Origin: Methylomonas sp. UP202
GTDB taxonomy: Bacteria; Pseudomonadota; Gammaproteobacteria; Methylococcales; Methylomonadaceae
Assembly: GCF_029910655.1 (NCBI RefSeq)
Contig: NZ_CP123897.1
Coordinates: 558,001-622,000 of the forward strand
Length of the DNA: 64,000 nucleotides
Direction: 5' to 3'
Positions 41,106 through 49,650 of the stretch are shown here, piece by piece. The notes beneath the pieces are model-generated. The model was not told the DNA's origin, did not search any database, and saw only the letters and a program-made list of their open reading frames with translations. The stretch's first letter is position 1. Each line of letters starts with the position of its first letter. Made by a program: the position numbers and the translations under genes.

Positions 41106-41121
41106 TGTAAGGTTTGCGACA
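41106..41121 (+). promoter_or_regulatory. NifA upstream activator site of the nifV operon
   Basis: TGT, ten bases, ACA, within TTTGT...ACAAA. It lies 84 bases before the start of the sigma-54 element, the usual NifA spacing. Confidence 0.8.
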
Positions 41122-41205: not shown

Positions 41206-41221
41206 TGGCAAGTGTTTTGCT
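41206..41221 (+). promoter_or_regulatory. Sigma-54 promoter of the nifV operon
   Basis: TGGCAAGTGTTTTGCT matches 11 of the 12 defined -24/-12 positions. It lies 69 bases before the nifV ATG and has a NifA site upstream. Confidence 0.85.
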
Positions 41222-42595: not shown

Positions 42596-43371
42596 TGTTC
42601 TTCTCGCCCTCCCGCATCGCTGCCACACCCGGCTTATGGCGGGATTGGCGGGAAGACGTGGCCTGCGTATTCGCTCGCGATCCCGCCGCGCGCGGTTGGT
42701 TGGAAGTCTTGTTGGCCTATCCCGGCGTGCACGCGGTATTGCTATACCGGGTCACTCACCGTTTATGGTTGGCCGACTGGAAGTTGACGGCCCGATTGTT
42801 GGCTGCGTTCGCCCGCTGGCTGACCAACGTCGATATCCATCCGGGCGCTACGATAGGTAAGCGCTTTTTCATCGATCATGGCGCTTGCGTCGTGATTGGC
42901 GAGACCGCCGAAATTGGTAACGACGTGACGATGTACCACGGCGTGACCTTGGGCGGTACCACTTGGAACAAGGAAAAACGCCACCCGACGCTCGGCGACA
43001 ACGTACTAATTGGAGCCGGCGCCAAAATACTCGGCGCGATCACGCTCGGTAACAATGTCCGGGTGGGCGCCAACTCGGTGGTCATCAAGGACGTACCGGC
43101 CTGCTGTACCGTGATTGGGATTCCCGGCCGGATCATTCAGCAAAAAGGCGTGAAGATTCAAGATCCGCGCGGTATCGATCTGGATCACCACCTGGTCCCC
43201 GATCCGGTCGGTAAAGCCATCAACTGTCTGGTTGAGCGTTTGGACGAGCTGGAAAACAATCAGAAACGTTTCGTGGTGGCCGAGGAAACCTGCGGCAGCT
43301 GCGAGGCGGAAGGGGTTTGCCACGGCGAAGAATCGCCGGTCAAACTGCGAACCGCGGCGGGTGGCAAATAA
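42592..43371 (+). CDS. cysE: Serine O-acetyltransferase, nif-linked CysE
   Basis: The enzyme acetylates serine to O-acetylserine, boosting cysteine supply for Fe-S cluster assembly by NifS/NifU. It has 259 residues from the ATG at 42592. The left-handed beta-helix repeats are clear ([59 protein letters not shown]). An acidic, Cys-containing tail ([16 protein letters not shown]) is longer than usual. A cysE copy after nifV is known in Azotobacter. Confidence 0.93.
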
Positions 43372-43904
43372 TGGATTTGTTACAGTTCGACGCTCAGGAT
43401 TTGTATTACGAGCAGGATGACTCTCAGGAAGTGCAGGATTTGATCAAATATGCGTCCGAGCGCTATGCCAACGGCGATGCGGAGTTGCCGCTATTGCAAG
43501 CCTTCCTGAGGGCGCCCGAGTCATTGAACGTTTTGGTCTCGTTGAATCGTTTCTACTATTACCAGCACCGCTTGGCGGAAGCCTTGATCATTTCGGAGCG
43601 GGCGCTGGCCTTGATTCGGCCCGGCATCGATTTCCCGGAAGATTGGCGAGCACTGGAACGTAGCCATGTTACCGAAGCGCCTAAGGAATTATTGACCCGC
43701 GTTCGCTTCTACCTGTTTACGTTGAAGTCGATCGGATTTTTGAACATGCGTTTGGAAAATCTCGAGTTGAGCCGGGCCATATTCGAAAAACTGGTGGCCT
43801 TGGACGATAAGGACCGGATCGGCGCGCAAGGCTTATTGGAATTGGTGGTGCGGCGCCAGGAAGCGGCCGAAGGTATTTTTCGGTTGCCGGACGTGTTCGG
43901 GTAA
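43371..43904 (+). CDS. Nif-operon protein of unknown function, helical-repeat-like
   Basis: This 177-residue soluble protein has its ATG sharing one base with the cysE stop (TAATG). It is helical and contains segments that look like degenerate TPR units (LNRFYYYQHRLAEALIISER; MRLENLELSRAIFEKLVALD). I do not recognise a named family. Its fixed place between cysE and nifW suggests an assembly or protein-interaction role in nitrogenase maturation, which is inference. Confidence 0.65.
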   Translation: MDLLQFDAQDLYYEQDDSQEVQDLIKYASERYANGDAELPLLQAFLRAPESLNVLVSLNRFYYYQHRLAEALIISERALALIRPGIDFPEDWRALERSHVTEAPKELLTRVRFYLFTLKSIGFLNMRLENLELSRAIFEKLVALDDKDRIGAQGLLELVVRRQEAAEGIFRLPDVFG

Positions 43905-44904: not shown

Positions 44905-45765
44905 ATGAACCAGACGGCGGACGTCAAAATAGAGCCCTATACTTTGCTGCGAGCGGCGTTGAACCTGTTCAAGAAAGCGCCGGCCGAACTTGAGCAACCA
45001 CAGTTGAAGCAAGTCGAGATACAGGCCCGCAACGAATTCGAAATCGAGAACCGGGTGTTGAGCTCCGACGAGGCCACCGGGGTGGTGATTTCCGATATCG
45101 AACTGGAAAGGGCTTATCAGGACGTGCGCGGTCGTTTCGAGGACGAAGACGGTTTTATCGCGGCCTTGGAGGCCAATCATCTGGACGAACAGGCGTTGCG
45201 GAGCGCCTTACATCGGCAATGTCGGGTCAATACGGTACTTGAGCGCGTCGCGGCGCGGGCGCCGAAGGTTAACGAGGTCGAGATCGGCATTTTCTACCAC
45301 TCGCATCCCGAGAAATTTCACAAACCCGAGCAACGCAAGGCTCGGCATATCGTGATCAGCATCAATCCGGATTTTCCGGAAAACACTCGGGAGAAAGCCC
45401 TGGAGCGGATGACCGAGGTACTCGAAACGCTGCATCGCAAGCCGCATAAATTCGCCGATCTGGCCTTGAAGCATTCGGAGTGTCCGACCGCGATGCAAGG
45501 CGGAGAGCTGGGTACCGTGGCGGCCGGTGTGTTATATCCGGAACTCGACGCGGTCTTGTTCGCGCTTAAGGAAGGCGGCTTTAGCGATGTTGTGGAGACC
45601 GAAATGGGCTTTCACGTGATTCAATGCCTAAAAATCATCCCGGCGGAAACGCTGTCGTTGAAGAAAGCAACCCCAAAGATTCAGCAAATCATGCAGGATC
45701 GTTATCGCAGAAACTGCCAGCGCACTTGGTTGGCCAGTCTGCCCGCAATCAAGAGGAGTGTTTAA
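44905..45765 (+). CDS. nifM: Peptidyl-prolyl isomerase NifM
   Basis: NifM is the parvulin-type isomerase needed to mature the Fe protein NifH. It has 286 residues: an N-terminal helical domain and a C-terminal parvulin domain (about 135-245) with ARHIVISINPDF, HSECPTAMQGGELGTVAAGV and VVETEMGFHVIQCLKI. There is no signal peptide, as expected for the cytoplasmic NifM. clpX follows directly. Confidence 0.93.
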   Translation: MNQTADVKIEPYTLLRAALNLFKKAPAELEQPQLKQVEIQARNEFEIENRVLSSDEATGVVISDIELERAYQDVRGRFEDEDGFIAALEANHLDEQALRSALHRQCRVNTVLERVAARAPKVNEVEIGIFYHSHPEKFHKPEQRKARHIVISINPDFPENTREKALERMTEVLETLHRKPHKFADLALKHSECPTAMQGGELGTVAAGVLYPELDAVLFALKEGGFSDVVETEMGFHVIQCLKIIPAETLSLKKATPKIQQIMQDRYRRNCQRTWLASLPAIKRSV

Positions 45766-45766
45766 C

Positions 45767-47062
45767 ATGGTAAAAGAACCCAAGCATTGTTCGTTTTGCG
45801 GCATAGAAGCGTCAGCCTCGGTGCCTATGATCGCGGGCACCGAAGGTTACATCTGCGAAGCCTGTGTTACGTTGGCTAGCCAGGTGGTTTCCAGCTGGGG
45901 CAAGAAGAAGGAACTGGCCGACATGCAAGGCCCGTTGCCCAAGCCCAAGGAAATGAAAAAAATGCTCGATCAATACGTGATCGGGCAAGATTTGGCCAAG
46001 GAAATTCTGTCGGTCGCCGTTTACAATCACTACAAGCGCCTCAAGCACGAGACCAGCAAAACCGGCGGTTTGGGCGATGCCGACCCGAAAGTCGAAATCG
46101 GCAAATCCAACATCTTGATGATAGGCCCCTCAGGCACCGGTAAAACCCTGTTGGCCAGTACCTTGGCGAAAATCGTCGGCGTGCCCTTCGCGGTGGCCGA
46201 TGCGACGACGCTGACTCAGGCCGGCTACGTCGGCGACGATGTCGAAAACATCCTGGTACGTTTGCTGGACGTGGCCGACGGCCAGATCAGCAAGGCCGAG
46301 TGGGGTATCGTCTACATCGACGAAGTAGACAAGATCGCGCGCAGTCCCGAGCAAGCCTTCGGTACCCGAGACGTGTCCGGCGAAGGCGTGCAGCAAGCGT
46401 TGTTGCGTTTGGTGGAAGGCTCGCAAGTCAAGGTGCCGACCAAAGGGCGCCGTAAGGACCACAGCGGCAGCGATTCGGTGATGGTCGATACCAGCAATAT
46501 TCTGTTCATCGCCGGCGGTGCGTTTCCCGGCTTGGAAAAGCACGTCGAAAAACGCTTGCAACCGCCGAAAACCGCGATCGGCTTCCACGCCGAAGTCAGC
46601 AATCCCGACGACAAGCCGACCCTGGAAGCGATGTTGAACGCCACCCAGCCGGACGATTTGAAACGTTTCGGTTTGATTCCGGAATTCATCGGTCGCTTCC
46701 CGGTCTTGGCGCCGCTGGAACCGCTGGACGTCGACGCGTTGATTCAGGTGTTGACCGAACCGAAAAACGCGCTGGTCAAGCAATATCAGCAATTGTTCGC
46801 CTTCGACGACGTCGAGTTGGAGCTGACCCAAGACGCCTTGGTGGAAATCGCCGAGAAAGCCATCGCCCGCAATACCGGGGCGCGCGGTTTACGCGGCATC
46901 ATGGAACACGTCTTGCGTAAAACCATGTTCGAGTTGCCATCCAAGGATAACGTGACTCGCTGTATCGTCAATGCCGAAGTCATCCGCGGCGAAGCGGAAA
47001 TTCAGGTGGTCGAGCGCGACAATCCGGACGAACCCGATTTGCAACGCTCGTCGGCGGGCTAA
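45767..47062 (+). CDS. clpX: ClpX-type AAA+ unfoldase, nif-linked copy
   Basis: ClpX unfolds proteins for ClpP or remodels them. The protein has 431 residues from the ATG at 45767, after AAGAGGAG. It has the N-terminal C4 zinc domain (HCSFCGIEAS, YICEACV), Walker A GPSGTGKTLLAS, Walker B IVYIDEVDKIA and the sensor 2 region NTGARGLRGIMEH. No clpP is adjacent. A nif-linked clpX2 in Azotobacter degrades nif proteins such as NifB and NifEN when fixation stops; the same role here is inferred. Confidence 0.92.
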   Translation: MVKEPKHCSFCGIEASASVPMIAGTEGYICEACVTLASQVVSSWGKKKELADMQGPLPKPKEMKKMLDQYVIGQDLAKEILSVAVYNHYKRLKHETSKTGGLGDADPKVEIGKSNILMIGPSGTGKTLLASTLAKIVGVPFAVADATTLTQAGYVGDDVENILVRLLDVADGQISKAEWGIVYIDEVDKIARSPEQAFGTRDVSGEGVQQALLRLVEGSQVKVPTKGRRKDHSGSDSVMVDTSNILFIAGGAFPGLEKHVEKRLQPPKTAIGFHAEVSNPDDKPTLEAMLNATQPDDLKRFGLIPEFIGRFPVLAPLEPLDVDALIQVLTEPKNALVKQYQQLFAFDDVELELTQDALVEIAEKAIARNTGARGLRGIMEHVLRKTMFELPSKDNVTRCIVNAEVIRGEAEIQVVERDNPDEPDLQRSSAG

Positions 47063-47123: not shown

Positions 47124-47750
47124 ATGAGCACTCAAACCACCAAAGAAAAGATCTTGCAACAATTGGCCGAAAACCCGGTGATTATTTATATGAAAGGCGT
47201 GCCCAGCGCGCCCGAATGCGGTTTTTCGGCGAAAGCGGTCGGTATCTTGAATGAAACCAAGGTGCCGTTTACCTACGTTAACGTGATGAAAGCGCCGTTC
47301 ATTCGCGAACGTTTGCCTTCGGTCTCGAAATGGCCAACCTTTCCGCAATTATTCATCAACGGCGAACTGATTGGTGGGGCCGACATCGTGGAATCGATGT
47401 ACAACGACGGCAGCTTGCTACCGTTGCTGCAAGCGGCGGTGACGCCGGCCGATCCGGTTGCCGCCAGCCAAACCATTACCCATTCCGAAGTCGAAGCCTT
47501 GATTCTGAGCGCCTATCCCGGCGCCAAAATCGAAATCGAGGGCCAGGGCTGCGACTTGGGTATCGTCGTCGTCAGCGAACTGTTTGCCGGGCAGACTATG
47601 ATTAAGCAACATCAAGGCGTCATGGAAACCCTGAGCGAGCCGTTGGCTTCCGGCCGTTTGCACGCGGTGACGCTGAAGACGTTTACGCCGGAACAACAAG
47701 CCGCGCAGCAACCGGCCGCCAATCCGGGCTTGCTGCAAATTCAACTTTAA
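47124..47750 (+). CDS. Monothiol glutaredoxin-BolA fusion protein
   Basis: The protein has 208 residues joining two partners that normally bind one Fe-S cluster as separate proteins. Residues 1-105 are a Grx4-type monothiol glutaredoxin with the CGFS active site (SAPECGFSAKAVGIL) and TFPQLFINGELIGGADIVES; residues about 118-190 are BolA-like (ALILSAYPGAKIEIEGQGCD; LASGRLHAVTLKTFTPEQ). A proline/alanine tail follows. Its place before nifF suggests an Fe-S carrier for nitrogenase. Confidence 0.9.
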   Translation: MSTQTTKEKILQQLAENPVIIYMKGVPSAPECGFSAKAVGILNETKVPFTYVNVMKAPFIRERLPSVSKWPTFPQLFINGELIGGADIVESMYNDGSLLPLLQAAVTPADPVAASQTITHSEVEALILSAYPGAKIEIEGQGCDLGIVVVSELFAGQTMIKQHQGVMETLSEPLASGRLHAVTLKTFTPEQQAAQQPAANPGLLQIQL

Positions 47751-49042: not shown

Positions 49043-49058
49043 TGTCGCGGGCGCGACA
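49043..49058 (+). promoter_or_regulatory. Candidate NifA upstream activator site
   Basis: TGT, CGCGGGCGCG, ACA: a TGT-N10-ACA site that is also a near-perfect palindrome (TTGTCGCG/CGCGACAA). It lies 115 bases before the start of the sigma-54 element at 49174. Confidence 0.68.
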
Positions 49059-49173
49059 AATCCTTGGGCAAATTGTTGTGTTGTTGGACACCGCACTCGA
49101 ATTCGACGCCGGATTTCTGGACGAAATCGGTTAAAACCCTGTATATAAGCGGGTTTTATCGTCCTGATTTTGA

Positions 49174-49189
49174 TGGCACCTAAATTGCT
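49174..49189 (+). promoter_or_regulatory. Strong sigma-54 promoter
   Basis: TGGCACCTAAATTGCT matches 11 of the 12 defined -24/-12 positions, including a complete TGGCAC and TTGCT. The next gene begins at 49283. Confidence 0.8.
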
Positions 49190-49282
49190 TAACAGAGGCT
49201 TGAAAATCCCGGATTTTCAGCGTTGCGGCGAACGAGGGACGCGGTTCGTCGTCGGTGTAAGCTCAGTTGTAGAGGTGATGAA

Positions 49283-49594
49283 ATGATCGAAGTGTTGATG
49301 GTATCCCTGGTAATGCTGGTGGTGGCGGTTTGCGCGTTTGCGCCGCTGGGCTGCACGATATTCGCGCAATCCAAAACGGCGGTAGCGGCGAAAGCCAAGG
49401 CCGGCGAGTCCGTGACGGAGTTTTCCGGTATTTTGGTACCGGAAGATTCGGTTTTAAAACGCCATTTTCTGGCGCAGTTGCAAGCCGAAATTGAAGCGAC
49501 GCTGTTTCCGCGTCCAACCGATTCGATGCTGCAACGTCACTATGACGCGTTGGTCGCGTCGGAGTTGGAAAGCCGTTTGGCCGGTGGCCGTTAA
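49283..49594 (+). CDS. Membrane-anchored protein with internal repeat, likely NifA/sigma-54 controlled
   Basis: The protein has 103 residues from the ATG at 49283 after AGAGGTGATG. It has an N-terminal membrane helix (MIEVLMVSLVMLVVAVCAFA then PLG), a short linker and two copies of a helical unit: VPEDSVLKRHFLAQLQAEIE followed by ATL, and RPTDSMLQRHYDALVASELE followed by SRL. It lies behind a sigma-54 promoter and NifA-type site, next to the nif operon, so a role in nitrogen fixation is likely but unknown. The helix resembles the 67-residue protein at 28115. Confidence 0.75.
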   Translation: MIEVLMVSLVMLVVAVCAFAPLGCTIFAQSKTAVAAKAKAGESVTEFSGILVPEDSVLKRHFLAQLQAEIEATLFPRPTDSMLQRHYDALVASELESRLAGGR

Positions 49595-49613
49595 ACGCCA
49601 CGGTTAGGCGGAG

Positions 49614-49650
49614 AAAAGGGTCGCCGGCTTTGCCGCGCGACCCTTTTTTT
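49614..49650 (+). terminator. Intrinsic terminator
   Basis: AAAAGGGTCGC, a loop, GCGACCC and a T run, 20 bases after the repeat-protein stop. The region from here to 49989 has no gene. Confidence 0.87.

Follow-up and report, generated by a model that had tools for sequence, protein, structure and literature searches.

Gammaproteobacterial methanotrophs fix nitrogen alongside oxygen-dependent methane oxidation. How these two processes are reconciled is among the matters discussed for an alphaproteobacterial methanotroph (PMC12727197). In the Methylomonas sp. UP202 genome, the promoters of nifH, nifE, and iscA-nifU have the same layout as that of ORF103, the gene described here: a -24/-12 sigma-54 site with TGT-N10-ACA 60 to 131 bp upstream. 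The former three drive genes for nitrogenase or cofactor assembly, whereas the ORF103 promoter drives a protein without known family. NifW and NifZ are short proteins, as is ORF103, and are encoded in one gene cluster with it, probably with a common activator; however, both have family models, while ORF103, a protein with a membrane helix, matches neither. The N-terminal membrane helix and the PEDS/PTDS-RH hairpin domain of ORF103 are shared with long proteins of the Methylococcales (e.g., L055, L062, and L068), but these have 200 to 540 amino acids and 2 to 4 domains, and no sigma-54 promoter was found in 45 tested.

The window, the whole stretch of DNA that was analyzed, is 64,000 bp long. 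An earlier note had described in it a TGT-N10-ACA site, a sigma-54 promoter, and a 103-aa gene with its own terminator as a separate unit. Table 1 shows that all these features were found where the note had placed them. The TGT-N10-ACA sequence at 49043 is taken here to be a NifA-type site. The start of TGTCGCGGGCGCGACA is 131 bp from the start of TGGCACCTAAATTGCT, which is 109 bp from the ATG of ORF103. The terminator hairpin folded with a z score of -4.0 and was equaled by none of 200 shuffles; it was absent from the output of a simple terminator scan. ORF103 begins 524 bp past the end of the nifV...rseC cluster. In the same genome, nifD is found at C1:985908 and modB at C1:2208408, the latter far from ORF103.

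Table 1. Features of the ORF103 locus (positions in the window)
Feature	Position	Strand	Basis or remark
nifV-like gene	41114
cysE	42577
195-aa protein, unnamed	43317-43904	+	weak TPR match below threshold
nifW	44112		best model below its cut-off
nifZ-domain gene	44423
nifM	44905
clpX	45758-47062	+
Monothiol glutaredoxin-BolA fusion	47124-47750	+
Flavodoxin (nifF)	47775
rseC-like gene	48312
NifA-type upstream activator site TGTCGCGGGCGCGACA (TGT-N10-ACA)	49043..49058	+	exact pattern match
Sigma-54 -24/-12 promoter TGGCACCTAAATTGCT	49174..49189	+	exact match
Ribosome-binding site GAGGTG	49272..49277	+	5 nt 5' of ATG
ORF103, 103 aa: membrane helix (residues 2-22), linker, helical hairpin	49283..49594	+	ORF, AlphaFold2, alignments
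Hairpin domain: helix 56-73, turn FPRPTD, helix 81-102	49448..49588	+	AlphaFold2
Intrinsic terminator hairpin with final T run	49611..49650	+	folding vs shuffles

The nif operon contains a ClpX gene immediately 3' of nifM, a glutaredoxin-BolA fusion with 79 to 81% identity in relatives that have the cluster, and the 195-aa protein with the sub-threshold TPR match, which is kept at 80 to 86% in the nif operon of relatives. Upstream of nifV (likely ATG, 41291), a TGT-N10-ACA site (41106-41121, plus strand) and a one-mismatch sigma-54 site (41206-41221, plus strand) lie 100 bp apart. Judged from the sequence, this pair is probably the promoter of the nifV...rseC operon.

AlphaFold2 predicted a helix at residues 2 to 22, a linker at residues 21 to 50 with pLDDT below 50, and helices at residues 56 to 73 and 81 to 102. 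The confidence was low overall (mean pLDDT, 66.4; pTM, 0.39), with a block of pLDDT 83 to 89 at residues 61 to 100. The one membrane helix and the two-unit repeat of about 23 residues reported in the earlier note were both recovered, the unit being about 25 residues long (PEDSVLKRHFLAQLQAEIEATLF and PTDSMLQRHYDALVASELESRLA), but the two copies are better seen as halves of one hairpin domain of about 50 residues, because larger relatives repeat the pair. Alignments showed invariant P, D, L, R, and H/Y positions in this domain. The N terminus had a net charge of -1 or -2 in 19 of 19 members, and the stretch after the helix was net positive in 15, zero in 3, and negative in 1. By the positive-inside rule, the acidic N terminus, together with a mostly Lys-rich segment past the helix, suggests an N-out, C-in topology, which would place the C-terminal part in the cytoplasm.

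The searches of Pfam, NCBIfam, and PDB returned no relative of ORF103 (best E value, 0.11 in Pfam and 0.059 in PDB), in agreement with the earlier view that it resembles no named nif gene, and a Foldseek search with the predicted structure returned nothing significant (best E value, 4.3). The ORF103 sequence held no pointer to a DNA-binding or signaling domain. A type IV pilin was rejected, the match to Pfam Pilin_N (E value, 0.11) being below its cut-off. A lipoprotein was also rejected: the N terminus is acidic, and C17 and C24, as read from the alignments, are not invariant (L051, L049, and L052). In the main texts of the open-licence literature searched, no paper on the gene was found, and four peptide motifs of the family likewise gave none. 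ORF103 is a real and conserved gene that is undescribed in the literature and libraries searched.

The hairpin domain was found in at least 213 of 301 Methylococcales genomes and at least 35 of 50 genera, non-diazotrophs included, whereas nifD was present in 149 of the 301. In a class-wide sample, the domain was matched in 4 of 369 genomes, 2 of the 4, weakly, being outside the Methylococcales; short relatives likewise came from Thauera, Thiodiazotropha, and other gammaproteobacterial genomes. The expectation that homologues are confined to diazotrophs thus failed for the domain, which occurs in many non-diazotrophs, but is borne out in part by the short sigma-54 subfamily, which is concentrated in nif+ genomes.

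Within 300 bp of the start, a sigma-54 score of 10 to 11 of 11 was found for 39 of 99 distinct proteins, of which 38 were short membrane proteins and the other was a short, soluble protein of Thauera. The 45 long proteins, with lengths from 172 aa up, all scored 8 or lower; among 486 control upstream regions, 22 reached at least 10. A score of at least 10 was also reached by 21 of a further 40 short or partial members, and 19 were without a strong sigma-54 site; the 19 included soluble forms and a second short membrane type (L156, L158, L162, L167, L168, L172, L173, L185, and L186). L184 is a sigma-54 member without a clear membrane helix. It is the short protein together with the sigma-54 site that tells the nif branch from its relatives. 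Long membrane proteins with 2 to 4 hairpin domains, two of which are encoded in this genome (C1:1222150 and C1:2324135), are common in the Methylococcales and are without sigma-54 promoters. Around five long paralogues, the neighboring genes offered no hint of function and no visible link to mod genes.

Full-length orthologues at 57% identity or more were present in 17 of 36 Methylomonas genomes, this one included, with 57 to 70% identity to ORF103 in the 16 further genomes of the genus; a 98% identical protein was found in Methylomonas koyamae R-45383 (L045). The -24/-12 site aligned in all 17 orthologues at 65 to 114 bp 5' of the start and was the best-conserved upstream block. It was an exact TGGCAY-N5-TTGCW in 16 and began with AGG in L017. 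In addition, AGGTGATG stood 5' of the start in 16 of the 17 (AGGTGTG in L017), and an exact TGT-N10-ACA was found in 9 of the 17 promoters, that of ORF103 included (8 of the 16 others). In the window, TGT-N10-ACA was seen 5 times against 6.45 expected, which alone is not significant, and one-mismatch sigma-54 matches were seen twice against 1.14 expected, also not significant. The exact site is rare: the 5.68-Mb genome had 23 TGGCAY-N5-TTGCW sites, and the reversed pattern occurred 7 times. It is the pairing of the sites and the conservation of this pairing that exceed chance, not the single sites.

We examined 21 of these 23 exact sites, 20 fetched and ORF103's own. TGT-N10-ACA was found within 150 bp upstream at four of the 21, namely, nifH (-114), nifE (-60), iscA-nifU (-112), and ORF103 (-131), where the first three names were read from sequence and position; a fifth had it at -209. 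NifA was above its family cut-off at C1:1200123-1201619 (640 bits versus 528.85), and likewise over the cut-off in genomes G010 and G139. Among 57 short-member promoters, which are related sequences picked for their sigma-54 site, an exact TGT-N10-ACA was present within 190 bp in 24, with 22 at -140 to -60; in 300 mononucleotide shuffles the mean was 2.85 and the maximum was 8.

The Methylobacter-type promoters had an exact TGT-N10-ACA in only 3 of 16, one of them at an implausible -23, and had ACAAATTGT in common about 84 to 100 bp upstream. In G139, which is of this type, 5 of 19 fetched sites had a NifA-type site within 150 bp, including those of nifH and an iscA-like gene; the short-member promoter was without one in that range and had ACAAATTGT at -84 instead. 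The pattern ACAAATTG-N60-90-TGG-N-A-N6-TTGC matched 16 times in 20 genomes, compared with 2 for the reversed control, and the 16 matches were distributed as 12 before the ORF103 gene family, 2 before nifH, and 2 elsewhere. In 11 of the 12 family matches, a TGN at the right distance before the ACA made a one-mismatch NifA-type site. At the two nifH promoters that carry ACAAATTGT, this sequence was not the right half of TGT/TGN-N10-ACA. The site patterns at sigma-54 promoters, together with the presence of NifA, indicate that NifA is likely the activator in Methylomonas and make it only plausible elsewhere.

The earlier note had placed ORF103 just after the nif operon. This position, directly after rseC, was found in 8 of the 17 orthologues, ORF103 included, but 2 were 5 to 6 kb off and 7 were elsewhere. 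The orthologue in G006 adjoins nifS-nifU-iscA, and that in G030 has none of the rseC/nif, mod, or nifSU neighbors. Outside Methylomonas, short members adjoin modEABC (L053), nifS-nifU (L059), or a NiFe hydrogenase (L051), while no nif, mod, or hydrogenase link was found at the locus in L050, L054, and L058. In L024, L029, and 12 other Methylomonas loci (14 of the 17), modB-modC lies directly 3' of the orthologue, and 9 of the 14 orthologues are flanked on the opposite side by the nif cluster. At those 14 loci, transcription of the molybdate uptake genes might also start from the NifA promoter.

We also compared the occurrence of the short sigma-54 member with that of nif. In Methylomonas (36 genomes, G115 left out), it was present in 28 of 31 nif+ genomes and in 0 of 5 nif- genomes (Fisher P = 1.5e-4); G030 was scored nif+ because nifM exceeded its cut-off and the nifD model matched at 313 bits, although neither nifD nor nifH was over its cut-off. 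In four genera with both nif states, the counts were 40 of 50 and 3 of 21 (stratified exact P = 2.4e-5). Among Methylococcales genomes at least 90% complete, they were at least 44 of 127 and at least 3 of 101 (P = 4.7e-10, kinship ignored); these order-level counts were gathered by hand, may undercount carriers, and include G014 and the weak site of G172. The latter genome has a weak sigma-54 site on its short member and is without nif. The member was present with no nifH over the cut-off in G287, G262, and G030, which are 78 to 88% complete; G287 and G262 were classed as nif-less. G177, G090, and G250 (83% complete), which belong to two genera other than Methylomonas, each carry a short member and its sigma-54-like site but none of nifD, nifH, or NifA over the model cut-offs. 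The nif+ Methylomonas genomes G001, G003, and G026 are without a sigma-54 short member, which is thus not essential to every diazotroph.

It could be proposed that the sites are chance matches and the reading frame is spurious, and neither site alone was significant in the window at the stringency tested. This has a negligible probability and is already refuted by the conservation of the full-length protein and its promoter across 17 genomes. The strongest alternative on regulation accepts sigma-54 control but assigns activation to a different enhancer-binding protein, either NtrC or one specific to methanotrophs, and places the gene in a wider nitrogen or redox-stress response. Many further sigma-54 activators are encoded in the genome, where the NifA model matched 18 times at E values up to 1e-60, the Methylobacter-type promoters share ACAAATTGT and not the exact NifA site, and in G177, G250, and G090 the activator cannot be NifA, as none is over the cut-off and the gene and its sigma-54-like site are retained. 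On the other hand, exact TGT-N10-ACA was far above the shuffled mean in the short-member promoters, an NtrC-like GCAC-N7-GTGC was exact in 0 of the same 57 and within one mismatch in 4 (raw counts), and nif and mod genes are the neighbors. We consider another activator rather unlikely. Membership in the NifA/sigma-54 regulon, as the earlier note had suggested, agrees with the conserved promoter, the site layout of nifH, nifE, and iscA-nifU, the nif and mod neighbors, and the co-occurrence with nif, and NifA/sigma-54 control in Methylomonas is very likely on these sequence patterns.

The strongest alternative on function, though an improbable one, is that ORF103 assists or regulates the molybdate ABC transporter ModBC and is induced by NifA to feed FeMo-cofactor synthesis. 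The modB and modC genes follow the orthologue even where the nif operon is elsewhere, a short member is beside modEABC in L053, and the distance to modB was 151 to 297 bp in the 7 loci tested, with a strong hairpin-T run in only one, so that co-transcription is possible. However, in this genome modB is far off and ORF103 has its own terminator, no modB match was found within about 12 kb in L050, L051, L054, L057, and L058, and no mod link was seen at the five long-paralogue loci read. About equally doubtful is the proposal that ORF103 is one of many methanotroph membrane scaffolds, e.g., of intracytoplasmic membranes, whose sigma-54 promoter only tunes dosage without a specific role in nitrogen fixation. 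The domain is indeed more widespread than nifD, and many family proteins hold 2 to 4 copies behind a membrane helix, but the short sigma-54 members track nif within genera and adjoin nif, mod, and hup genes. A nif-specific role of ORF103 is probable in our judgment.

Our preferred reading, in which we have good though not full confidence, is that ORF103 is an unnamed accessory nif gene of gammaproteobacterial methanotrophs under NifA and sigma-54, encoding a membrane protein with a cytosolic hairpin that may serve as a tether. When fixed nitrogen is exhausted, NifA would bind at 49043 and drive sigma-54 RNA polymerase at 49174, as the conserved sites suggest. The product would be a single-pass inner-membrane protein with its C-terminal part in the cytoplasm, and the predicted flexible linker of about 30 residues would present the two-helix hairpin at the membrane surface. 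The most likely job of the hairpin would be that of a tether or adaptor that recruits a binding partner to the membrane while nitrogen is being fixed; we infer this mechanism tentatively. Because of the neighboring genes, the partner may belong to electron supply (flavodoxin or RseC), molybdate import (ModBC), or cluster assembly (NifS-NifU).

A broader and more speculative idea, to which we give little weight, is that methanotrophs have their own family of membrane-tethered helical-hairpin scaffolds, one branch of which was captured by NifA so that nitrogen fixation is organized at the membrane, with molybdate import, electron delivery, or respiratory protection located beside nitrogenase. 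If true, such a branch would organize nitrogenase at the membrane of cells in which methane is being oxidized with oxygen simultaneously. A conserved gene on what is very likely the NifA switch, with a domain undescribed in the libraries searched, is a testable candidate for an overlooked part of methanotroph nitrogen fixation.
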